Origin: a virus
Virus record (IMG/VR): IMGVR_UViG_3300034107_000949
Location: 1 to 45,608 of that record
Direction: 5' to 3' (one strand)
Length of the DNA stretch: 45,608 nucleotides
Of this stretch, positions 38 through 30,004 are shown one piece after another (within the stretch, counting starts at the first letter, position 1; each line of letters begins with the position of its first letter). Under the pieces are notes generated by a model. The model worked only from the letters and a program-made list of their open reading frames with translations, did no database searches and had not been told where the DNA came from. The position numbers and the translations under genes are program-made.

Positions 38-505
38 TTATTTTTTAGTGGTTATTGTTCCACCTTGTTTAGCTACTTTTTGAGCTACTTTAATACTCTT
101 ATCTTCTGTTTTCAAAATTGTATTACATATTAATGTAACATCATGAAAAGAAAATAAGACTTTGTTTTTATACTTTTCAGTAGTTTTTACGATGTTTTTA
201 ATTTTCGTAAAAGTCAACAAAGATTTTTGTTTGTCTGTTAACATTTCAGTACCTTGAATAATTGAATATTCAATAAATGTACTATGAATTTTTGACAAGC
301 TAAAAGACTCTTTTTTAGCGTTTGAACTTATTGCCAAAAGTTTGTAGTAATTGTTTTCAGTTGTCAAACCCCTTTGTATTGACTTTTCAAGTTTTTGAAG
401 TTTTGTTAACTTAACTACTTGATTTTCAACTACTTGAGTGTTAACTACCTTGTTAACTACTTGATTTTCAACTACTTGAGTTGAATTTTTTACACTTGTT
501 TTCAT
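38..505 (-). CDS. Basic Lys/Thr/Val-rich protein with repeat-encoded N-terminus
   Basis: 155 aa, unrecognised. The first ~32 residues are a repeat (VVENQVV, VVNTQVVENQVV) encoded by two perfect 28-bp direct repeats 42 bp (14 codons) apart. The same DNA motif recurs ten times in the non-coding stretch upstream. The remainder is basic and predicted helical, with many Lys, Thr and Ser; no signal peptide or membrane segment is visible. It is the last gene of the leftward arm in the window and lies between a possible TATCTTTG promoter and an edge hairpin. A DNA-binding role at the adjacent repeat array is only a guess from proximity and charge. The N-terminus may have arisen by reading into the array, so an inner start cannot be excluded. 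Confidence 0.7.
   Translation of the reverse strand: MKTSVKNSTQVVENQVVNKVVNTQVVENQVVKLTKLQKLEKSIQRGLTTENNYYKLLAISSNAKKESFSLSKIHSTFIEYSIIQGTEMLTDKQKSLLTFTKIKNIVKTTEKYKNKVLFSFHDVTLICNTILKTEDKSIKVAQKVAKQGGTITTKK
411..480. repeat. Two perfect 28-bp direct repeats inside the 155-aa gene
   Basis: Copies at 411-438 and 453-480, each beginning TTAACTACTTGATTTTCA and continuing ACTACTTGAG, with a partial copy TTAACTACCTTG between them at 441-452. They encode the VVENQVV repeats and match the non-coding array upstream in sequence and orientation. Confidence 0.9.
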
Positions 506-557
506 AACAACAATTTTTAATAAATAAAAGAACTAATTTTGTGCCGTTTGCACTTAG

Positions 558-565
558 CAAAGATA
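558..565 (-). promoter_or_regulatory. Possible promoter (-7 box) for the 155-aa gene
   Basis: Minus-strand TATCTTTG fits TAnnTTTG and lies 52 nt before the ATG. No TTTG is found 20 nt upstream, so this is a weak call. The leader between box and start contains a short hairpin (GTGC/GCAC). Confidence 0.35.
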
Positions 566-628
566 GTATTTCTTTTTTGATAAATTGCTAATTTTTGGTA
601 ATAAATACCAGTTAAGTAGGAGTTCAGC

Positions 629-1209
629 TTAACTAATTGATTTTCAGTAAGTTATAAGTTTACCAGTATTATTAACTATTTGATTTTCAGTAAGTTATAA
701 AGTTATTAACAATTTGCTGTTAATTTGTAACTGCTTGATAATTAGGTAAATAAAATGTTTAAAAAGTGAAAAAAATTTAATTCATACTAATACTATGGGA
801 TATAAAAAGTGAATTGCTAACTGCCTGATTTTCAGCACTATATTTTTATAACTACTTGATAATTAGATAGTTAATTTCTTGATTAGATTCTAGTCAAATA
901 GGTACAATTTCTTGATTAAATTTTAGGAATTTGCATACATTTGAACTATCAATTCTTATTTTTTAATCATTAATTTGATTAATAATTAATCAAAATACCT
1001 GTAATATATAACTGCTTGATAATCAATTAGTTAATTAATAGCTTAGTACATAGGTACTTATATAACTATCTTAAACTCAAGGAGTTACTAACTACTTAGA
1101 TACTAGTATGTTACATAACTACTTAGTTCTCAGCAGGTTAAGAAGATCTGAGCTAACTGCCTAAAAATCAAGCACTTACCTAGTTTAGTTCTAACTGCCT
1201 GATTCTCAG
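629..1209. repeat. Iteron-like array of an 18-bp motif, non-coding
   Basis: Ten same-orientation copies of TAACTRCYTGATTNTCAG, allowing a few mismatches: 629-647, 672-690, 728-745, 818-835, 849-866, 1009-1026, 1089-1106, 1116-1133, 1154-1171 and 1192-1209. Spacing is irregular (about 27 to 160 bp). The first two copies share further flanking sequence (GTAAGTTATAA). No ORF of useful length covers the region. Same-strand degenerate repeats of this kind are typical of initiator- or regulator-binding iterons, but no initiator is identified here. Confidence 0.8.
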
Positions 1210-1503
1210 GAGGTTAACTTACTGGATAGTTGGTGGGGGTGTACCCAAAAAACAGAAAATTTTTAGAAAATTTCTGGCATAGGTATGTAGTCACTCATGG
1301 ACGATCGACAAATTTCAGATATCCCTTTTTAACGATCCACTATATAACGGTTCGTGACCAAAAACAAAAGAGGGGGTACATTTCTGAGACCCCCTTTATA
1401 ACTAGTGTGTTCCGACCGTATCATGGTGTGGTAAGTTTTAGGCACTTACAGTTGTAGTACTTGTCTACTAGCCATGGGAACACTTTAACCACATACTAGT
1501 TTA
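1210..1503. other. Non-coding stretch between array and 198-aa gene
   Basis: About 290 bp without a supported gene. It has higher GC (about 35% over 1261-1320) than the repeat array and contains the terminator hairpin at 1361-1394. I see no tRNA or promoter in it. Confidence 0.5.
1361..1394 (-). terminator. Terminator for the leftward PD-(D/E)XK operon
   Basis: Inverted repeat GGGGGT (1372-1377) / ACCCCC (1389-1394) with an 11-nt loop. On the minus strand it is followed by CTCTTTTGTTTT, a fair T-rich tail, about 110 bp past the stop of the 198-aa gene. Confidence 0.55.
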
Positions 1504-2100
1504 TTACATTTCCAATAAGGTATAAGAGAACTTATTTCCATGGATCTTTTTAGCTTTGCGTATGATAGCCATGAACTCTTCGAAGTCTTTTACTCGTTTG
1601 AATACTTGACAACCAGCTGACCAGTTTTCTACCCACGTAGAATCTCTTCCTGCTTTGTGGATATTGATACCATACATTCCCCTTGTAACTTTATTCTCAT
1701 CGTATTCTAGGTCTAAGTCTGAATCACGATACACGTCTACATTAGCCAATCGTTGACAAAGGGCCTCATACTTTCCTTGGTGTAAATCGATAGCGTAGGT
1801 TGATCGGTATTGTCCTGGTACTAGTCGTGCACATCCACCGGTGATACCCATTGCTCTCCACTCTAGCATGGATTTCTTTCCTGGGTCTGTGGTTGCTGCC
1901 CATTCTTTGTACTGCCATTCTCCTTTTTCATCTTTGTAGGAGATTGTGATTAGGTCATCAAATACATTTGTTACCTTCTTTCCGGTAGACTTGTTACGGA
2001 CACCAATGATATTTACATCGTATCCTTTGTTGGAATTGTCTTCGAAAAAACGAAATCCTTTTTTGAGCATCTCAGCTCTTAATTGTGTTAGTGTATACAT
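1504..2100 (-). CDS. L,D-transpeptidase-like protein, possible lysis/peptidoglycan enzyme
   Basis: 198 aa. The C-terminal part carries GINIH...G at about 147-151 and WSAGCQVF at about 163-170, the His...Ser-x-Gly-Cys pattern of the YkuD/L,D-transpeptidase fold. The central part (TTDPG, then VPGQYR and a Y-D/N-rich stretch) is as I recall from a family common in phages of diverse hosts and often annotated as endolysin-like or unknown. No signal peptide is visible, so export would need a holin. It is the last gene of the operon starting at 3198. A cell-wall activity is inferred from the motif; whether it cleaves or only modifies peptidoglycan cannot be told from sequence. Confidence 0.6.
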   Translation of the reverse strand: MYTLTQLRAEMLKKGFRFFEDNSNKGYDVNIIGVRNKSTGKKVTNVFDDLITISYKDEKGEWQYKEWAATTDPGKKSMLEWRAMGITGGCARLVPGQYRSTYAIDLHQGKYEALCQRLANVDVYRDSDLDLEYDENKVTRGMYGINIHKAGRDSTWVENWSAGCQVFKRVKDFEEFMAIIRKAKKIHGNKFSYTLLEM

Positions 2101-2111
2101 ATTTATGTTTA

Positions 2112-2345
2112 TTATTTCAATGGGTGATACAGCCTGAATATCTCATCAAGGGACAACTTGTTTAGTTTCTTTAGTTCGGTAGATATTATATCTAGCACGT
2201 AAGATGTAAAGTGCCCTTGATCACTATTTGGAGCATAAACAAATAGACCATCTTCTTCCATGTATATGGTTCCTATATTTTTCTTTCCTGCAAATATTAC
2301 CTGGTAGGATGTTACTGCTTCTTGTATTGATTCTAGCTTTAGCAT
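2112..2345 (-). CDS. Small hypothetical protein (77 aa)
   Basis: Unrecognised. Start chosen at 2345, where ATG follows the upstream gene's TAA by one base (TAACATG), a spacing also used at 7491; the longer frame to 2396 would overlap that gene by 50 nt. The protein has a beta-rich start (ITSYQVIFAGKKNIGTIYM region) and a helical C-terminal half. It lies between a 54-aa gene and the L,D-transpeptidase-like gene in the same operon. Confidence 0.6.
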   Translation of the reverse strand: MLKLESIQEAVTSYQVIFAGKKNIGTIYMEEDGLFVYAPNSDQGHFTSYVLDIISTELKKLNKLSLDEIFRLYHPLK

Positions 2346-2346
2346 G

Positions 2347-2511
2347 TTAAAAACGGAAGATTGATTTGGTATAGGCAATAGCTCTATCATAAACACTTGG
2401 GTTTATTTCTAACTTTTTCTTCAGTTTACTTACCTCGAAAACTAATTCGTTTACTTTGTCTACCAATGCGTACTCTGCCATTGGCACTCTTTCTTTTTCT
2501 AATTTTTTCAT
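2347..2511 (-). CDS. Small charged helical protein (54 aa)
   Basis: Short ORF beginning MKKLEKERVPMAEYALVDK and ending KSIFRF. It fills the gap after the nuclease gene (6 nt) and ends one base before the next ATG, exactly as expected for an operon member. The middle (VDKVNELVFEVSKLKKKLEI) has heptad spacing and could be a short coiled coil. No family recognised. Confidence 0.6.
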   Translation of the reverse strand: MKKLEKERVPMAEYALVDKVNELVFEVSKLKKKLEINPSVYDRAIAYTKSIFRF

Positions 2512-2517
2512 TTGTTA

Positions 2518-3198
2518 TTATGAATTTAGGTATAAATACAATTCGTATAATCTTGAAATCTCTTTTGCTACACTGTCTGTTTTAGCCAAGAAGATTTCTG
2601 CTCTCTCAGGAGAGTATGGGGTTGGAATATCCTTGATCGCTCCGGATAATCTCAACATGTTTCCTCTCACGTTATTTCCTTTTCGGCCAAGCAACTTTAC
2701 AAAGGATTTCTTAACAGGGAATCCTTCTTGTTCTACCGCGTAAGAATACAAGGTTGTTTGTTGGTAATCCTGGCTTCCGTAGTATGCCGGTTTTGAATCG
2801 ATGTTTCCTGTTTTAAAGTCAAGTACTTCTACTCCGCCTTCCACCGGATACATTCTATCGATGAACCCTTGAATAACGTAGTCACCACGGTCCACTACAA
2901 TCTCAACCTCGTGTTCAGATCCTTCAGGTCTTTCTAGGCTATCAAGTATCTCTCTTGTGCCTTCATCAAGCATACCTCCAACAACTTCTCCGTTGGTTTC
3001 GATATACTCTCCAACTTCGCCTCCGAAGAATGCGTAGATGTTTCCTGGATCTTGTATACCGTAAAAGTATCCTAGTATGTATTGAGCCTTGTATAAAGGA
3101 TCCTTGAAAGAAGTAATCTGTGAGTAAGATAACTTCGGTTTACCGTTGTACTTTTCGAACTTTGGTAATGCTGCTTTGTATATTCTTGGTAGTTTCAT
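2518..3198 (-). CDS. PD-(D/E)XK superfamily nuclease (RecB/Cas4-like)
   Basis: 226 aa. The motifs occur in the family order: LSYSQI at 23-28, a GGEVGEYIE helix at 59-67, GFIDRM at 111-116 (Asp114), VLDFKTG at 125-131 (Asp127, Lys129 of the D-x-K pair), then Q...Y (Gln146, Tyr151) of the RecB-type QxxxY motif. This is the PDDEXK_1/Cas4-RecB nuclease fold; such nucleases occur in crAss-like replication modules and process DNA ends or recombination intermediates. Substrate is not inferable. It is first in its operon: a -7 box TATATTTG ends 4 nt before the ATG, predicting a leaderless mRNA. Confidence 0.85.
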   Translation of the reverse strand: MKLPRIYKAALPKFEKYNGKPKLSYSQITSFKDPLYKAQYILGYFYGIQDPGNIYAFFGGEVGEYIETNGEVVGGMLDEGTREILDSLERPEGSEHEVEIVVDRGDYVIQGFIDRMYPVEGGVEVLDFKTGNIDSKPAYYGSQDYQQTTLYSYAVEQEGFPVKKSFVKLLGRKGNNVRGNMLRLSGAIKDIPTPYSPERAEIFLAKTDSVAKEISRLYELYLYLNS

Positions 3199-3202
3199 AT
3201 TG

Positions 3203-3210
3203 CAAATATA
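3203..3210 (-). promoter_or_regulatory. -7 box TATATTTG, 4 nt before the nuclease ATG
   Basis: Minus-strand TATATTTG-CAAT-ATG. No TTTG at the 20-nt spacing; that position lies within the upstream operon's terminator hairpin. Confidence 0.7.
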
Positions 3211-3212
3211 CT

Positions 3213-3239
3213 AAAAAACCCCCATTGTTGTATGGGGGT
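3213..3239 (-). terminator. Rho-independent terminator after the groES-thyX operon
   Basis: Stem CCCCCAT / ATGGGGG (7 bp) followed on the minus strand by six Ts. It directly abuts the next operon's -7 box. Confidence 0.85.
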
Positions 3240-3245
3240 AGCTTG

Positions 3246-3635
3246 TTAAATTTTCACAATTTTTCGTGAGGTTACAACACCAAAGTCATCTCTTTTCTCC
3301 TCGATCTTAGCACCAGGCACAAATGTTAATGCTTCTGCAACATCCCAATCTGTTTCTATTATCTCTTCCCAAGCAGGCTTATCAGTCTCTCCGTATTTTT
3401 CTACAAGTTCTTTTACCAATAAGTATCTTCGTCCTTGCATTCCTCGTTGCTGAGTAGTTACCTGGATTACTACACCTACTCCTTCGATTTCCATCGCTTT
3501 TGTAGACTTCATCCAACCTTCTTCCTCAGAAGATGCTTTAGAGATCAATTTAAATGCGTCTCTGTCGCCCCAAAAAACGATATCCTTAACGTTCTTGGTT
3601 ACTTTGTTTGAATTACTATTATGAAGGGTTTTCAT
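3246..3635 (-). CDS. Hypothetical protein (129 aa), last gene of the groES-thyX operon
   Basis: Not recognised. Mixed alpha/beta composition, no membrane segment, no Cys cluster. Notable stretches are DIVFWGDRDAFKLISKA near the N-terminus and RGMQGRRYLLVKELVEKYG in the middle, which look like a compact soluble domain. It overlaps the preceding 86-aa gene by 17 nt and ends just before the operon terminator, so it is translated with the anti-CBASS candidate's operon. No function proposed. Confidence 0.65.
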   Translation of the reverse strand: MKTLHNSNSNKVTKNVKDIVFWGDRDAFKLISKASSEEEGWMKSTKAMEIEGVGVVIQVTTQQRGMQGRRYLLVKELVEKYGETDKPAWEEIIETDWDVAEALTFVPGAKIEEKRDDFGVVTSRKIVKI

Positions 3636-3879
3636 CTTCGATAGTTTTCATTTCCTCAACTACTTCTGCTTCCACTAATTGTCGTGGGAAGATTTCAAAT
3701 ACAGAATCCTCTGATCTAAAAACGATGTTAGCTTCTAGCTCTGCAGGAATCTCAATCTTTAACGGATCGTTTTTATCTGCTCTTCCGAATACTACCACTT
3801 CTTCGTCATTAATTTTAAAACACCATTCTACTGCTCCTTCGATAGGTGTTCTCTTTCCCATTGTTACTGGTCCTTCCAT
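3619..3879 (-). CDS. Hypothetical acidic protein (86 aa)
   Basis: Unrecognised. Begins MEGPVTMGKRTP and is beta-rich with an acidic C-terminus (EAEVVEEMKTIEDENPS). It lies 8 nt after the Acb2-like gene and overlaps the following gene by 17 nt. The alternating hydrophobic pattern around AVEWCFKINDEEVVVFGRAD suggests a small beta-barrel or sandwich. No function proposed. Confidence 0.65.
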   Translation of the reverse strand: MEGPVTMGKRTPIEGAVEWCFKINDEEVVVFGRADKNDPLKIEIPAELEANIVFRSEDSVFEIFPRQLVEAEVVEEMKTIEDENPS

Positions 3880-3887
3880 TTTGATTT

Positions 3888-4133
3888 TTATTTTAGGGTT
3901 AAAATTTTTACTACGTTCATTTGTGCGTTTAATACTTCACCAATTGCATGTGTGTACATTGAGTTTGTAAGGGGATACGCTTGTAAGTTTTTTGCTCTTA
4001 CTGTTTCATCTAACATATCCGCTAACTCTGCACAGATTTCTTTTGCTCTATGTACCTTTGGATCTCCTGATGGATTGAATGTTAATCCTACAAGTTGTTC
4101 TCCAAATGTCATTGGTCTTTCTGTTCCTTCCAT
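3888..4133 (-). CDS. Probable Acb2-like cyclic-nucleotide sponge (anti-CBASS)
   Basis: 81 aa. The central GLTFNPSGDPKVHRAK is followed by a helix with AELADML, then a C-terminal helix HAIGEVLNAQMNVVKILT. This matches the layout I know for phage Acb2/DUF7681 proteins: 'FNPSG...V..IK...AELID' and a final helix of the type 'A...AQMWAVKA(I/A)T'. Acb2 proteins oligomerise and sequester cyclic di- and trinucleotides, blocking CBASS effectors. The protein has the small helical size expected. It sits among other small host-takeover genes. The invariant Trp of the last helix is replaced by Asn here, so function is inferred rather than certain. Confidence 0.55.
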   Translation of the reverse strand: MEGTERPMTFGEQLVGLTFNPSGDPKVHRAKEICAELADMLDETVRAKNLQAYPLTNSMYTHAIGEVLNAQMNVVKILTLK

Positions 4134-4135
4134 TT

Positions 4136-4441
4136 TTATTGGTTTTTTGTTATTATGTATTCTGAATTTTTTGTTTTAAATTGCATGAATTTTTCCGAAA
4201 AACTGATCACTTCAGTTATTACACTAGTCATCCATTTGTAGGAAACAGCAGTTCTGTCGACTATTAAAGCAAAACCTATTCCAGGTTCTTTGTGCAGAAG
4301 TCTTCCTCTTCCATTGTCATCAAATTCTACAAACCCAATAACTTCTCCTTTTATTTTCAGTCCGTCATTTAGTCTTTCTATCTCGTATGGATAGTTTGTC
4401 TCTTCGATATTAAGCATAAATATAGGTCTATCTATTTTCAT
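4136..4441 (-). CDS. Hypothetical protein (101 aa)
   Basis: Unrecognised; predicted mostly beta (NYPYEIERLNDGLKIKG..., GFVEFDDNGRGRLL...). The start overlaps thyX by 14 nt and the end is 2 nt before the Acb2-like gene, so all three are probably co-translated. No signal peptide, membrane segment or catalytic motif visible. Confidence 0.65.
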   Translation of the reverse strand: MKIDRPIFMLNIEETNYPYEIERLNDGLKIKGEVIGFVEFDDNGRGRLLHKEPGIGFALIVDRTAVSYKWMTSVITEVISFSEKFMQFKTKNSEYIITKNQ

Positions 4442-10435: not shown

Positions 10436-10888
10436 TTATGAAACCAAATCTGAAGGAAAGAATTTTCCTAATAAATTTTGGTTGTAACAATCTTCTCTTT
10501 CTAAGCAGTTTACGCAAACAATGTGTTTTATCTCATAATAAGATAATTGTTTTTTTGTATAACAAACTTGTAATATCTCTTTTTCGTATATATTTCCTTG
10601 TTTAATATCTTCATTTAATGGTTTACAGCTTCCGGTGTATTTTAACCAATTTGTCTCAGAAGTTACCGTCTTAAATGTTTTTCTAGAATTACCTGGTAGA
10701 AGTTTTTCGGCTTTTGTAAGTCTTTTCTTTAGAGTAGACATCAAGGATTTCCTTCCAACATAAAATCTACCATTGCTTTGATTCCTTATTATATAGATAA
10801 ATCCAACAGCATTTTCAGGTAATTGGTCAACAGAGGTAATTTTCTTACCACTGTATAACCAACAATGATCTATTACTTTCTTAGCCAT
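10436..10888 (-). CDS. GIY-YIG family endonuclease-like protein
   Basis: 150 aa. GFIYII at 29-34 and YVGRKSL at 43-49 form the two strands of a variant GIY-YIG motif, with Arg46 as the catalytic Arg position. WLKYTGS at 81-87 and the Glu of SYYEIKH (Glu119) complete the usual nuclease layout, and the C-terminus YNQNLLGKFF is typical of phage members. CVNC...C (125-134) could bind a metal. It may be a free-standing homing-type nuclease or a DNA-processing enzyme. Its ATG overlaps the recA stop (TAATG), so it is tied to recombination by operon structure. Confidence 0.75.
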   Translation of the reverse strand: MAKKVIDHCWLYSGKKITSVDQLPENAVGFIYIIRNQSNGRFYVGRKSLMSTLKKRLTKAEKLLPGNSRKTFKTVTSETNWLKYTGSCKPLNEDIKQGNIYEKEILQVCYTKKQLSYYEIKHIVCVNCLEREDCYNQNLLGKFFPSDLVS

Positions 10889-11886
10889 TACACAAAAAGT
10901 TGTTTTCTGATTTCAACTTCTAATTCGTCTGTCAGCTCAATATTATCTCTCAATAATAATACTACATTATTAGCCCCCTGACCAAGTTTAATATCTCCGT
11001 AAGAGTACCAAGATCCACTTCTTTTTACAAGACCTAAGTCTTCTGCGAAAGATAGTATTTCCATTTCTCTTGAGATACCCTCTCCGTAGTTGATAATATA
11101 CTCTGTCTCCAAGAATGGTCGAGCTGTTTTATTCTTTGTACATTTAGCTTTTACCAGGTTACCTGTGATTGTACCTTCTCCGTCTTTTTGTTTCTCTGAC
11201 TGACGTAATTCAATCTTTATAGAGGGGTAGAACTTAACTGCATTTCCACCTGGTTCCGTAATTGGAGATCCGTAAACAACACCAATCTTCTCACGTAGTT
11301 GGTTTACAAAAATCCCAATAGTGTTGTGCTTGTGCAATGTTTGCGTTATTTTAGGGAACGTAGCTGAATTTAATCTAGCTTTTACACCCATTGATTGATC
11401 ACCAACATCTCCATCAGCTTCTTTTTGTGTTTGTGCTGCAGCTATACTGTCAAAAATAATTATATCTATTAAGCCTGTTGAAACAAGATCTACAAGTATT
11501 TGATATCCTTTTTCTATTGTATCAGGTTGAGAAACAATTAATTCATCAACATTTACACCTAAACTTTCTGCGTAAGTTTTGTCAAAACAATACTCATGAT
11601 CAATATAAGCAGCTCTTCCACCTGCTTGTTGAACTTTTGCGATTGCATACAAACAAATAGTGGATTTTCCTGAAGACTCGAAACCTGAAACATAGTGCAT
11701 TAGGCCTTTTACCCATCCACCACCAGTGATGTAGTCAAGACCAAGTGAACCTGTAGGTACTCGTTCTCTATCTTCTCCTTCAAAATTTTTGTACTCGTAA
11801 ACAGTTCCTGCGCCATAAGACTTATTAATCTTATCCATTACGTCTTTAAGTAAATCTAAACTACCTGTTTCTTTAACCTTTGCCAT
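10888..11886 (-). CDS. recA: RecA-family recombinase
   Basis: 332 aa, near bacterial RecA length. PTGSLGLDYITGGGWVKG at 44-61, Walker A GFESSGKST at 68-76 (bacterial GPESSGKTT), YIDHEYCFDKTYAESLGV at 94-111 (bacterial FIDAEHALDPVYA...), Walker B region DIIIFDS at 141-147, NQLREKIG at 195-202, GGNAVKFY at 213-220, and the C-terminal WYSYGDIKLGQG. It promotes homologous strand exchange in repair or recombination-dependent replication. It is closer to bacterial RecA than to T4 UvsX. First gene of its operon: TATATTTG -7 box and 16-nt leader. Confidence 0.93.
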   Translation of the reverse strand: MAKVKETGSLDLLKDVMDKINKSYGAGTVYEYKNFEGEDRERVPTGSLGLDYITGGGWVKGLMHYVSGFESSGKSTICLYAIAKVQQAGGRAAYIDHEYCFDKTYAESLGVNVDELIVSQPDTIEKGYQILVDLVSTGLIDIIIFDSIAAAQTQKEADGDVGDQSMGVKARLNSATFPKITQTLHKHNTIGIFVNQLREKIGVVYGSPITEPGGNAVKFYPSIKIELRQSEKQKDGEGTITGNLVKAKCTKNKTARPFLETEYIINYGEGISREMEILSFAEDLGLVKRSGSWYSYGDIKLGQGANNVVLLLRDNIELTDELEVEIRKQLFV

Positions 11887-11902
11887 ATAAATAATTTTTT
11901 AA

Positions 11903-11910
11903 CAAATATA
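11903..11910 (-). promoter_or_regulatory. -7 box TATATTTG of recA
   Basis: Minus-strand TTTTG-TATATTTG followed by TTAAAAAATT and a 16-nt leader in all. No TTTG at the 20-nt spacing. Confidence 0.7.
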
Positions 11911-12533
11911 CAAAATAATAAAACAATTTACACTACTCTATGCATATAAACTTTTACAAAAAATACTTAAATTACTTAAAATAAGCAATATAAATATTCA
12001 ATTTTTACCCAAATAACAATATTATACACCATACCATTATTTAGTATACCAGGATATCTTATTTAACCCATATTATTTATTGTTTTTTTGGGTATCCTTT
12101 TTATGAGGATTGTGTAGTTATGTGTTTTTTGAAATCCTTTAAGTATGTTTCGCGGCTATCTTGGATTTCTTACTACCACTCTAATTGGATATCTTTTCTA
12201 CGTGTTGTTGGTAAACTAACACCCCCTTACCCCCTCTTTAACTATTATAATATACTGATAAATAGATAGTTAAGATTTAGGTAGGGAAGACTATATTAGT
12301 CCAAGTGACCGGAAAAACACCAAATCCTGACATCACTCTAGCTTTTTTCGTTATTGCACTACCGGGTTTTTATTACCCTACTCCGCAAAACTGGCAGAAA
12401 GCTTATAAACTGCCATCCTCTGGCGAATCTTTTCCGAAGAAACTTCACTTCCATTTAGCTTTTCAACTTTCGTTGATCAACGTGTGTCAATTAAGACTGC
12501 TCCACGCCATTGGTTTTATGCAAAAATATGAAT
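11911..12533. other. Intergenic region near the arm divergence: AT-rich part plus GC-richer hairpin-rich island
   Basis: No convincing gene. 11941-12000 is about 15% GC, whereas 12301-12540 is about 40%. Hairpins/palindromes visible: ATCCT/AGGAT near 12092, GACTATATTAGTC near 12290, GGGT/ACCC at about 12364-12378, TGGCAG/CTGCCA flanking AAGCTT near 12390-12420, C(TTCG)G tetraloop on the minus strand near 12436, and CGTTGATCAACG near 12471. On the minus strand a TATTTTTG box at 12521-12528 could drive transcription into the island. An RNA gene, a replication origin or a degraded insert are all possible. Confidence 0.5.
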
Positions 12534-12752
12534 TTATCTCAAACCAAACTTTAAAATTCCGGAAAAAATTACCTCAAATGATTTAATAGCTTCATTTACA
12601 GTGTATTTTCTTCCATCATATTTATCGTATAATCTATAAAATTCATAGATTATGCTTTGAAATAGCTCCGAATTCTTGTCATAGTACTCGTCCGACACCA
12701 CCGAATTTGGTAGTCCGTTCCATACATCCATTTGATATTGTTCGAAATTCAT
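12534..12752 (-). CDS. Small hypothetical protein (72 aa), most upstream minus-strand gene
   Basis: Start chosen at 12752 (MNFEQYQMDVW); the longer frame to 12767 starts inside the -7 box TATATTTG, which ends 4 nt before the chosen ATG. The protein is helical and rich in Tyr (SDEYYDKNSELFQSIIYEFYRLYDKYDG), with a C-terminal amphipathic helix. No family recognised. As the first gene beside the arm boundary with a leaderless-type promoter, it is a candidate early gene. Confidence 0.6.
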   Translation of the reverse strand: MNFEQYQMDVWNGLPNSVVSDEYYDKNSELFQSIIYEFYRLYDKYDGRKYTVNEAIKSFEVIFSGILKFGLR

Positions 12753-12756
12753 AGGG

Positions 12757-12764
12757 CAAATATA
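12757..12764 (-). promoter_or_regulatory. -7 box TATATTTG, 4 nt before the 72-aa gene ATG
   Basis: Minus-strand TATATTTG-CCCT-ATG. Back to back with the start region of the rightward arm at 12812. Confidence 0.7.
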
Positions 12765-12811
12765 CATTTATTTTTAATAAATCAAAATTTTTTTTGTTAA
12801 TATTTGTAAAT

Positions 12812-14964: not shown

Positions 14965-17034
14965 ATGAGCCAATTTCTTTCTTCAAATGAAATGTTTATA
15001 AATATGAAGGATGCACCAAGGTGGGATCCTAAGAAGAACTATTTCGATCAAGAAATTAGTACTTTAGATTTTTATGAACAAGAAAGAAGGAAAATTACCG
15101 AGGGTGTTATGATTAATGGATATTACATGCACCCTTGGCTTTACTGGCACATAAACTTCTTCAAAACACCAATTCCGATTAAAAATGCTCAAGGAAGAGA
15201 TGTTGAAAAAATTATGTGTCCACCAATCGATGACAACTTTTTGTACATAATAGAAAATTACCAAGAAGCTGAAAAGAATAATCTTGGAATATGTTTATTT
15301 GGAACAAGGGGTTTTGCTAAGTCTACTGCATTATCATCTTTGATTACTTGGACAAACTCTATAAGAGCAAATGGTACAACCTCTGTTATTGGAGGTAGTG
15401 ACTTAGACTTAAAAGCAATTTCAAAACTAATACAAACCGGATTCAATAAAGTAAACCCTGCATTTTTTATTCCACAATTAATAACTGAATGGGAGAGTCT
15501 TGTTGAGATCGGATTAAAAGAAAAAGATGGTTTTAGGTTACCTCATTCTCATATATCTATAACAAACGCAAACAAAGGAACAGCTAAGTCATCTGAAAAA
15601 GGTGCAGGTTTATCTCCGGTTGGTTTTATTATGGATGAGATAGGTAAATTTAATTTTAAAGATATCCTAAACTCAGCACTTCCATCTTTTATTACACCGA
15701 CTGGTGCAAAATTAGTTCATGTATTATCAGGTACATCAGGTAATGAGGAGTTATCAAAAGATGCTAAAGACGTACTTTCTAACCCAGAAGATTATTCATT
15801 AATTACAATGGATTGGGATAAACTTGAAAGAAACGTGGATCCGGATTATGTAACCTGGGAAAGAAGTAAGAAACAAAAATTCTCCATATTTGTTCCTGCG
15901 CAAATGTCTTATCGTTTAGCTGTTCCAAAAGTAGAAACAACTTTAGATAAACATTTAAATTTAAAAAATGAAGGTTTAAGTAAAGTAAAAATACAAATCA
16001 CAGACTGGAAAACAGCAAAAGAAGTACTTACAGAAAAATTAAACTCTCTTAAAAAAGAAGAGTCTAAGGAAAAACAACGCATGTACTATCCTCTAGAAAT
16101 AGATGATGTATTTTTAACTTCAAGTTCGAACCCATTTCCAACAGCACTTATCGATAAACGAATAAGATTCCTTGAGGATGAAGGTTTAATTGGAAAAAAT
16201 ATTGAAGTATATAGGCATAATGGAAAAATTATGCAAGAGTTCTCCCCTAAGAAAAGAGCAGAAGTTAGTCACCCTGGTGGCGAGGCCGATGCACCTGCGA
16301 TACTTTTTGCAGATGTACCTGAAATTACACCACCTAAATTTACTTATGTTTCCGGACTCGATGATTACAAACTTGATCAATCAGAGACATCCTCTTTAGG
16401 TGCTTTTTACATTATTAAACGAAGAAATCTAGAACCAAATTCTCCTTGTGAGAAGATTGTTCTTTCTCATACTACTAGGCCATTTAGACATGGTGATTTT
16501 CATAAAGACTGTGAAAAGCACATTGATATTTGGAACTCGTTATGCAACATGGAGGCAGTCGATGTCAGTTTTAAACAACACTTAGATACAAAAAATAAAG
16601 CTGAACAATGTTTAGCACCATCAATTTCCTTCTCAAATTCAGTACAAACAGGTAATTATAAACTTACTACAAAGTTTGGTGTCTATCCAACAGCTGGTAA
16701 TAAGTCATACATGTTCAACCTTGTTATTGATTTTATGAAAGAAGAGCATGTAGTTGGTATTGATGAAGATGGTAATGAAATAATTAAATACGGTGTTGAT
16801 TTTATAGATGATATTGATTTACTTAAAGAGATGTTATCTTATAAAAAAGGAGGAAACTTTGACCGCATCATAGCATTTATGCACGCATTAGCGTATGCTC
16901 GTGAGTTGGATAAACTAAATATTAGACCGGACCAAAAAGAAAAAACAAACAATAAAATGGCATTCCAAGGATCTGATACTAGAGAAAGACCAAAAATAAA
17001 TGTATTTTCAAACGTTAAGTTGAGGATATTCTAA
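14965..17034 (+). CDS. terL: Terminase large subunit
   Basis: 689 aa, usual for crAss-like TerL. ATPase half: Walker A GTRGFAKST at 113-121, VIGGSDLDLK (141-150), Walker B GFIMDEIGK at 220-228, coupling-motif SGTSGNEE at 255-262. Nuclease half (RNase H fold): GLDDYKLD at 464-471 supplies the first acidic residues, and NFDRIIAFMHALAYA at 631-645 the last Asp. It drives ATP-dependent DNA packaging through the portal and cuts concatemers. The ring MHPWLYWHINFFK at 55-67 is typical of the family. Followed by the portal with its own promoter. Confidence 0.93.
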   Translation: MSQFLSSNEMFINMKDAPRWDPKKNYFDQEISTLDFYEQERRKITEGVMINGYYMHPWLYWHINFFKTPIPIKNAQGRDVEKIMCPPIDDNFLYIIENYQEAEKNNLGICLFGTRGFAKSTALSSLITWTNSIRANGTTSVIGGSDLDLKAISKLIQTGFNKVNPAFFIPQLITEWESLVEIGLKEKDGFRLPHSHISITNANKGTAKSSEKGAGLSPVGFIMDEIGKFNFKDILNSALPSFITPTGAKLVHVLSGTSGNEELSKDAKDVLSNPEDYSLITMDWDKLERNVDPDYVTWERSKKQKFSIFVPAQMSYRLAVPKVETTLDKHLNLKNEGLSKVKIQITDWKTAKEVLTEKLNSLKKEESKEKQRMYYPLEIDDVFLTSSSNPFPTALIDKRIRFLEDEGLIGKNIEVYRHNGKIMQEFSPKKRAEVSHPGGEADAPAILFADVPEITPPKFTYVSGLDDYKLDQSETSSLGAFYIIKRRNLEPNSPCEKIVLSHTTRPFRHGDFHKDCEKHIDIWNSLCNMEAVDVSFKQHLDTKNKAEQCLAPSISFSNSVQTGNYKLTTKFGVYPTAGNKSYMFNLVIDFMKEEHVVGIDEDGNEIIKYGVDFIDDIDLLKEMLSYKKGGNFDRIIAFMHALAYARELDKLNIRPDQKEKTNNKMAFQGSDTRERPKINVFSNVKLRIF

Positions 17035-27562: not shown

Positions 27563-30004
27563 ATGCCATATAAAGTTAATCCCACAACAGGTCAGCTTGA
27601 TTACTATGAAGTATCAGAAGGCGGAGGTGGAGGAGTAGCAACAAATCTATCATTCATACCTTCTCCAACATCAGGTACAGTAACTTCTGATTCAGGGACA
27701 GACGCAGATATTACACTAGCTACAACAACAAACTCAGGTTTATTTTCTCCGCAGGAAAAATTAAGACTTCAAAAAGCTCTTATAGATGATGTTATATTTA
27801 GACAAATATATAGTAACACAGCTTTTTATGCAATAGGTGATGTAGTTGACTATTTTGGGGTATTGTACCAAAGAACTAGCAGTGGGAATGAACAAGGTAT
27901 TACTCCACCTTCACCAGAGTGGACTATTTATGACCCTTTATTAGGTGCAGATGTTTTTGATCATTGGATTAGAATAGCATTAGGTAATAGATTAATTTCC
28001 CAAGGTATTAATTATCAAGGAGATTATAACAATGGTACTAGTTATCCTATTGATGCAGTAGTAAGTACACCAGAAGGAAGTCCTTATGGATTACCTGGTC
28101 AACTCTTTATAAGAACTACTAATCCAGGAAATCCAGGGTATCCTCCAGGAACAGCATCTTGGGAAGTTTATAATATATATACCGGATCTCCAGCTTTTGA
28201 TGCTTGGATTAGAAGTGTTTTGCAAACTAAGGTTACTGTAGAAATTGGTAAAGGATTATCCACTGAAGATTACACCACAGCAGAACAAACAAAGTTAGCA
28301 GGTATCGCAGCAGGAGCCGAAGTAAATGTAAACCCAGATTGGAATGCTACTTCAGGAGATGCTGAAATATTAAATAAGCCTACAATCCCAGCAGCACAAG
28401 TAAACCCTGATTGGAATGCAACAACAGGCTTAGCAGAGATATTAAATAAACCAAGCATTCCTGCAGCACAAGTAAATTCTGATTGGTTAGCTACTTCTGG
28501 TTTAGCACAAATATTAAATAAACCATCAAGTCTTCCTACAGCAAATGTTAAACATTCTGTAAAATACGGAGTTGCTTTAACTATTGGACAAGCTGTTTAT
28601 GTTAGTAGTGCTGATGGAACTAATATGGTCGTATCTAAAGCTGATAATTCAACAGAAGGTACTTCGAGTAAGACAATGGGGTTAGTTACATCTACAGGTG
28701 CAGCTAATTACCAAGGAGAAGTAATTACAGAAGGATTACTAGCAGGGTTAAATACAAACGGTGCAACCGCAGGAGATCCTGTATGGTTAGGTGATGATGG
28801 AAATTTACTATATGGTTTAGCAAATAAACCAGTAGTACCAAACCACACGGTATTCATTGGTATTGTAACAAGAGTAAACACTAATAACGGTGAGATTTTT
28901 GTTAAAGTTCAAAATGGATATGAGTTAGAAGAACTGCACAATGTTCTTATAACAAGTCTAGCAAATAATCAAGTATTAGCTTATGATTCAGTTTCTGGAT
29001 TGTGGAAAAATAAAAATTTATTAAACTTAACAACTACAGGTTATGAAGGTGTAGCAACATTATCCGGAAATAACCTAAATATACCTGCATATAAATCAAT
29101 TTTTTACGCAGGTGATTTTGCAAGTGGTGAAGGTTACAATCCAGGTGATGTAGTTTTATACAATAATAATTTATACTACTGTTTTCTTGGAATTGGATCT
29201 GCTTCAACCCCAGATACTGATCCTACACATTGGAGTTTATTTTTACCTGGAGCTAGTGCAGCAGAAAATGTGTTTGAATTAAAACCTAACTATGTATATA
29301 GAGGTATTACAATAAACAATAACTCTACAACTGTAGTTGCTGAAGGTGGTGTTGTCATGTCATCAAGTGCATCAAATACAGCTCAATCTGTTGCATCAAC
29401 AAATTTTGCAACTAAACAAATAAGATTAAGATATTATGCAACAAGTGTAACAGGTGGTAGATATACTGGAACAAGAGGTTCTTCTTTATTATGGTATATT
29501 CAAGGAGGTTTTCATTATGTTTGTGATTTTAATATTTCAGATACTTCTTATGCTGCAGGATGTCAACAATTTTATGGAATGGCTGGTCAAACAACTGACT
29601 TGAGTTATGGTACTTCAACACCTATATTAGTTAGTACATTGATTAATATAGTAGGAGTAGGAAATGAAAATGGAGATGCTAATTTATCAGTTTTTCATAA
29701 TGATGCAACCGGAACAGCTACAAAAATTGATTTAGGTGTAAATTTTCCAGCAAATAGAACTGCTGGTGCTATTTCAACAACTTTTTACAGTGTTCAACTT
29801 TATAACGCACCTTCTTCAACAGATGTACACTATAAAGTAACAAATAATGAAACAGGTGCAGTTGCAACTGGAGTAGTTTCAACAAATTTACCTCTTTCTT
29901 CACAAGGATTAAATTTCTTTGCAAGTAGATCTATGGCTGCAACTTCAGTAACTGGTACAGGTCAATTTGATTTATCAAAATTAGGAGTTTACTCAATACT
30001 ATAA
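27563..30004 (+). CDS. Tail fibre/adhesin with carbohydrate-binding-like modules
   Basis: 813 aa. N-terminus MPYKVNPTTGQLDYYEV then a Gly run (virion attachment). Three segments resemble short carbohydrate-binding modules with 'Y-x-x-G-D-V-V...Y': AFYAIGDVVDYFGVLYQ, NYNNGTSYPIDAVV-type and EGYNPGDVVLYNNNLYYC. Between them are three 24-residue repeats (V-N-x-D-W-x-A-T-x-G-x-A-x-I-L-N-K-P). The segment VKHSVKYGVALTIGQAVYVSSADG is a common fibre fold. C-terminal ~200 residues form a likely receptor-binding domain. It probably mediates host recognition. Neighbouring genes are other fibre parts. Confidence 0.8.
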   Translation: MPYKVNPTTGQLDYYEVSEGGGGGVATNLSFIPSPTSGTVTSDSGTDADITLATTTNSGLFSPQEKLRLQKALIDDVIFRQIYSNTAFYAIGDVVDYFGVLYQRTSSGNEQGITPPSPEWTIYDPLLGADVFDHWIRIALGNRLISQGINYQGDYNNGTSYPIDAVVSTPEGSPYGLPGQLFIRTTNPGNPGYPPGTASWEVYNIYTGSPAFDAWIRSVLQTKVTVEIGKGLSTEDYTTAEQTKLAGIAAGAEVNVNPDWNATSGDAEILNKPTIPAAQVNPDWNATTGLAEILNKPSIPAAQVNSDWLATSGLAQILNKPSSLPTANVKHSVKYGVALTIGQAVYVSSADGTNMVVSKADNSTEGTSSKTMGLVTSTGAANYQGEVITEGLLAGLNTNGATAGDPVWLGDDGNLLYGLANKPVVPNHTVFIGIVTRVNTNNGEIFVKVQNGYELEELHNVLITSLANNQVLAYDSVSGLWKNKNLLNLTTTGYEGVATLSGNNLNIPAYKSIFYAGDFASGEGYNPGDVVLYNNNLYYCFLGIGSASTPDTDPTHWSLFLPGASAAENVFELKPNYVYRGITINNNSTTVVAEGGVVMSSSASNTAQSVASTNFATKQIRLRYYATSVTGGRYTGTRGSSLLWYIQGGFHYVCDFNISDTSYAAGCQQFYGMAGQTTDLSYGTSTPILVSTLINIVGVGNENGDANLSVFHNDATGTATKIDLGVNFPANRTAGAISTTFYSVQLYNAPSSTDVHYKVTNNETGAVATGVVSTNLPLSSQGLNFFASRSMAATSVTGTGQFDLSKLGVYSIL
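28328..28543 (+). repeat. Three 72-bp tandem repeats in the tail fibre gene
   Basis: Units begin at 28328, 28400 and 28472 (GTAAAyyCwGATTGG...), each encoding 24 residues of the D-W-x-A-T...I-L-N-K-P type. Confidence 0.9.

Follow-up and report, generated by a model that had tools for sequence, protein, structure and literature searches.

The window, by which we mean the whole IMG/VR viral contig of 45,608 bases analyzed here, carries between its recA gene and the gene for a small conserved protein a member of a new family of structured RNAs. The predicted transcript is ~300 nt long, lies on the minus strand (~12213-12516) and comprises a core of helices P1 to P7 (12302..12513) followed by a terminator-like 3′ hairpin, P8. 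The family is absent from Rfam 15 and shared by distantly related crAss-like phages; its function is unknown. The initial annotation had read this GC-richer island as a candidate structured RNA of the minus strand, and the covariation analysis that it named as a check proved decisive: the structure is supported by covariation over 17 distinct phage sequences. The core is further supported by its match to covariance model R1 and its sequence identity in a near relative. We regard it as at least very nearly certain that the island represents a real structured RNA family, a conserved RNA that is missed by folding energy and gene calling and is evident from covariation.

Because its terminase (14965-17034) is 39% identical to those of Cellulophaga phages phi17:2 and phi4:1 and also matches crAss-like phages from gut metagenomes, the window is, as judged by sequence similarity, part of a crAss-like phage genome. 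CrAss-like phages rank among the most widespread Bacteroidota viruses. The left arm, on the minus strand, carries recA, a SegE-type GIY-YIG endonuclease, PhoH, an exonuclease and thymidylate synthase Thy1, and the right arm, on the plus strand, carries the terminase, portal and tail genes. The island is flanked by the gene for a 77-aa protein (12534-12767, minus strand), the first gene left of the divergence, and by recA (10888..11886, minus strand; Pfam RecA, 2e-78), the next gene downstream of the RNA; both are neighbours that lie outside it. The switch in gene orientation and the minimum of the cumulative GC skew are close to the island. The 77-aa protein, whose function is unknown, has homologues in L002, L004 and phi17:2 and no match in Pfam or PHROG. 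Its gene sits at the divergence point, and the strand of the homologues, minus or plus, differs from phage to phage. The endonuclease gene (10436-10888; E 3e-24) directly follows recA, and its homologues occupy the same place in many relatives. In the right arm, 27563-30004 encodes a tail-fibre-like protein with a CBM5/12 (chitin-type carbohydrate-binding) domain (E 2e-8).

A close relative, L003 (83% identical; terminase 96% identical), aligns with the window across the whole region. The core (12301-12513) is 94.4% identical between the two, with a one-base indel, as compared with 91% for the 77-aa gene and 62% for the spacer before recA (11887-12214). This spacer is AT-rich and fast-evolving, and GGATATC/GATATCC and GAAATCC/GGATTTC inverted repeats recur in it. 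A scan based on terminase alignment yielded 49 relatives, and blastn then also revealed the island in phages whose terminase is just 37-39% identical to that of the window. Each of these matches fell on the minus strand, ~3.3 kb ahead of the one to the terminase. A motif scan added two members of greater divergence, L161 and L197. In the seven records that were searched whole, there was one clear copy of the RNA per record.

To set the structure, we aligned 13 distinct homologues with MAFFT, leaving out the window and L003, and defined 51 pairs by hand after a column scan for covarying helices. In this alignment, 93.9% of the cells were paired, and 85 cells showed two-sided change compared with 23.7 ± 3.9 after shuffling and at most 25 in slid controls. 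Model R1, which rests on these 13 sequences without the window, recovered the window with 102.9 bits (E 7.1e-24) and L003 with an E value of 1.3e-23. With 17 distinct sequences, the paired fraction was 96.4%, two-sided change was seen in 41 of the 51 pairs, and the number of two-sided cells rose to 177, compared with 44.3 ± 5.7 in shuffled alignments (none of 500 as high) and no more than 30 in slid controls. The 17-sequence alignment was fitted to the model and leans towards it; the 13-sequence alignment was made by MAFFT, yet it served as the basis on which the structure was set. Among the paired cells there were 762 Watson-Crick and 48 G-U combinations and not a single A-C, which fixes the minus strand as the RNA. 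Conserved structure, strand and genomic position are direct observations.

Folding energy gave no comparable signal. The z-scores were -0.95 for 12250-12535 and -1.75 for 12255-12518, which are unconvincing as evidence for a structured RNA, so a single sequence would not have settled the question. The jump in GC content noted in the initial annotation is real (0.404 at 12296-12530, 0.150 at 11941-12000), but it is only mildly unusual by itself, because 3.3% of all 235-base windows in the record are equally GC-rich. The extent given to the island at that stage, 12296-12530, needs correction: the true extent is ~12213-12516, so the earlier left edge misses the 3′ hairpin.

Upstream of the core stands a -7 box, TATTTTTG (12521..12528, minus strand), of the Bacteroidetes sigma-A type. 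The TAnnTTTG motif, already pointed out before homologues were compared, lies shortly before the start of the core in all members but L197 (16 of 17); in the 83%-identical relative the box reads TACTTTTG. Since the sigma-A box spans -12 to -5 in flavobacteria (PMC9723704), the predicted transcription start is ~12516.

The core opens with hairpin P1 (12479..12508; 12503-12508 paired with 12479-12484), which contains the stem P1b (12494-12497 with 12486-12489); together, 8 of their 10 pairs changed on both sides. Hairpin P2 (12463..12476), which reads CAAC-GAAA-GUUG in the window, did so in all four pairs. A palindrome, CGTTGATCAACG, previously listed as a potential hairpin is present as letters, but it was rejected as a conserved helix, because relatives divide those letters between P1 and P2. 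A highly conserved strand, CUAAAUGGAAG (12448-12458), leads into P3 (12431-12443; 7/8 pairs two-sided), the two forming the region 12425..12458. In the window P3 is capped by the C(UUCG)G loop that had been recognized at the outset, and likewise the TGGCAG/CTGCCA hairpin corresponds to helix P4 (12410-12415 with 12392-12397). P4 (12392..12415) has two-sided change in 4 of 6 pairs and 99% of its cells paired. The strand between P3 and P4, CGCCAGAG (12418..12425), is identical in all 17 members. The long-range helix P5 (12385-12389 with 12353-12357; region 12353..12389; 5/5 pairs two-sided) encloses P5a (12375-12378 with 12364-12367; 5/6), and P6, which is present in other members, is missing from the window. 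P7 (12303..12338) has two-sided change in 6/6 outer pairs, and its tip, GGAUUUGGUGUUUUUCC (12311-12327), is conserved in all members but L161, with one additional base change in L197. Two extra pairings suggested by eye, a GUAG/CUAC pseudoknot and one between the A-rich strand and the U-run in the loop of P7, are neither supported nor excluded, because the letters involved are nearly invariant.

Every copy ends in a hairpin; in most, it is long, has a G-rich arm and precedes UGUU. In the window this hairpin, P8 (12213..12300, minus strand; MFE -21.9, z -1.64), pairs a pyrimidine-rich 5′ arm with the G-rich 3′ arm GAGGGGGUAAGGGGG (12222-12236), and UGUU follows at 12218-12221. A comparable hairpin, then UGUU, was obtained in all 15 members checked. 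Almost every member retains the motif GGGGG-(UAA|A|UUU)-GGGGG, whereas C and U replace each other in the pyrimidine arm; L197 retains the G box (GGGGGUUUGGGGG) and L161 has a different hairpin. As modelled, P8 looks like an intrinsic terminator. The U-run behind it is weak in the window (UGUUAGUUU), in L003 and in L029 (UGUUCUGC) and longer in most members, and a simple terminator scan called no terminator at P8.

The distribution of the family is patchy. No copy was found in phi17:2 or csAssE-Sib, and in phi17:2 nothing rose above noise even with the filters off; searches without filters also found no member in L002, L020, L025 and L028. Among GenBank phages no homologue was detected by blastn, model R2 gave no match in 296 Bacteroidota genomes (without a positive control), and a pattern scan of genome contigs, whose pattern was too loose, gave no member in the 79 tested among the matches listed. 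So far, the family has been found in crAss-like phages only. In the terminase tree the members fall into two separate parts: the window and L003 sit among 13 relatives without the RNA, and the other 15 members form a second clade. It follows that the family is old and that its members were often lost, moved or altered past recognition.

The window shares the slot of the family, on the minus strand, left of the divergence and before a helicase and/or recA. In its clade recA itself directly follows the RNA, whereas members of the second clade have a RadD-like SF2 helicase gene (PDB 6jde, 1.6e-41) next, followed by recA. The spacing from RNA to gene is 332 nt to recA in the window and ~156 nt to the helicase in L036. 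In L197 the RNA comes directly after an array of 18 tRNA genes (365-4223), whose order is largely that of phi17:2. A search of the window itself found no tRNA or tmRNA.

We consider it probable, short of confident, that the RNA is the product of a dedicated non-coding gene and acts in trans as a stand-alone phage RNA. Host RNA polymerase would start at the TAnnTTTG promoter, near ~12516, and stop after P8, near ~12213. The fold of the ~300-nt transcript would comprise at least seven helices, a conserved loop and several single strands that hardly vary, and the free RNA would act in trans, most likely by binding a host or phage protein or ribonucleoprotein, early in infection while the leftward replication and repair arm is expressed. 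The promoter-like box and the 3′ hairpin are observed features; transcription from the one, release as a separate RNA at the other, action in trans and its timing are inferred. We prefer this reading because the parts of an RNA gene (promoter box, structured body and terminal hairpin) occur together, because the downstream gene changes and because the test of one antiterminator candidate, described below, was negative. In particular, the RNA stays while the following gene differs (recA or the RadD-like helicase), which favours a free RNA. Several points weigh against it: a cis leader would likewise explain why the RNA always precedes the same replication/repair operon (helicase and/or recA); the downstream U-runs are weak in several copies and the terminator scan is silent; L197 lacks the TAnnTTTG box; there are no transcript data; and no target or protein partner is known.

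Other phages have different sequences in this slot. In L002 (7058-7460), L028 (6972-7370) and L047 (6979-7391) the minus strand carries a different conserved non-coding element of ~400 nt, which begins at an TATATTTG box and has a mean column identity of 77%. It resembles the island RNA in its slot between a homologue of the 77-aa protein and recA, its strand and the box at its start, but has no detectable sequence or model similarity to it; it may represent a second RNA family taking the place of the first. In phi17:2 (L018) a long, largely non-coding region with an TACGTTTG box (3500-4140, minus strand) lies between the tRNA array and the helicase; it occupies the same slot, yet does not match the RNA model, and it might hold another RNA. 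A dedicated slot in crAss-like genomes in which unrelated trans-acting RNAs replace each other is a tentative idea that we would not yet expect to hold. Such a swap, between the family of the window and the element of L002, L028 and L047, is what would be expected of an RNA under fast host-phage conflict, and if the idea is true, the slot RNA could be, for example, an inhibitor of a host machine or defence.

The alternative that survives best, although we think it rather unlikely, is that the RNA serves the leftward helicase/recA operon as a cis-acting leader (attenuator, riboswitch or processive-antitermination element), in which P1-P7 would sense something or bind RNA polymerase and P8 would be a regulated terminator. 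The RNA is always upstream of the same operon and on the same strand, and classical attenuators are built in this way, with a terminator-like hairpin behind a structured body. Regulation of this kind predicts an alternative pairing, and the only antiterminator candidate tried, the conserved AAUGGAAG strand with the 5′ arm of P8, was no better than shuffled arms (mean z -0.21). In addition, all members checked retain the P8 hairpin, and both the downstream gene and its spacing vary.

A role as an origin or primer RNA, in which the G-rich 3′ arm would anneal to a C-rich template as an R-loop and prime replication, appears improbable. R-loop priming has precedents in ColE1 RNA II and, as a proposal, in the G-tract of mitochondrial CSB II. 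The location near the orientation switch and the skew minimum, beside recombination and helicase genes, would suit such a role, as would the fixed G tract opposite a drifting pyrimidine arm. However, the skew switch also tracks gene orientation, and the G tract is base-paired in P8, where G can pair with C as well as U, so that the constancy of the tract calls for no further function. L161 lacks the tract, and the many close relatives without the RNA must replicate without it. An origin, initially named as the main alternative to a structured RNA, is not needed to account for the island, although the RNA could still play a part in replication.

A DNA-level element or protein-binding region (origin iterons, a packaging or centromere-like site) with merely RNA-like inverted repeats would fit the non-coding, AT-rich intergenic location, but it is very hard to reconcile with pairing rules that hold on one strand only and with multi-helix long-range covariation of the RNA type. 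We give practically no credence to a protein-coding gene: the sole long ORF across the island (12305-12586, plus strand; 93 codons) is broken by a frame shift in the 83%-identical relative, where the core has its one-base indel, and changes follow base pairing, in line with the original view that no plausible gene is present.

The island RNA, which we favour as a stand-alone trans-acting RNA, falls in no Rfam 15 family. In Rfam 15 the window had no match at the gathering cut-off, so that the Rfam check also left the island without a family, and at a relaxed threshold the best was a chance match to MIR390; among other members, L036 had chance matches only and L161 and L197 matched only tRNAs. 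Literature searches, which did not extend to the candidate tables of PMC8040213, found no description of such an RNA for crAss-like phages. That human-microbiome survey lists thousands of candidate RNAs, and because its tables lay outside the search, an earlier unnamed listing is possible. With 17 distinct members, a covariance model, a promoter box and a 3′ hairpin, the family is defined enough for direct testing in a cultured relative.

Compared with known systems, the island RNA shares with riboswitch and attenuator leaders a structured body, a terminator-like hairpin and an operon behind it, but unlike them shows no conserved antiterminator pairing in the one candidate tried, and has a varying downstream gene and no Rfam match. 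Like ColE1 RNA II and other R-loop primers, it is structured, with a G-rich end tract and replication genes nearby, but its G tract is base-paired and absent from some members, and no origin has been shown. ROOL and GOLLD, large ornate RNAs of phages and prophages that often lie near tRNA islands (PMC12286853), resemble it in kind: they too are phage-encoded, with an elaborate covarying structure and unknown function, and the L197 copy that follows 18 tRNA genes recalls their location. The island RNA differs in its size (~300 nt, whereas many GOLLD RNAs exceed 800 nt and ROOL is also large), in having no match to their Rfam 15 models and in being confined so far to crAss-like phages. One criterion for ROOL and GOLLD RNAs is assembly into homo-oligomeric RNA cages. 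By analogy, the best reading is that the island RNA may be a smaller analogue of ROOL and GOLLD.
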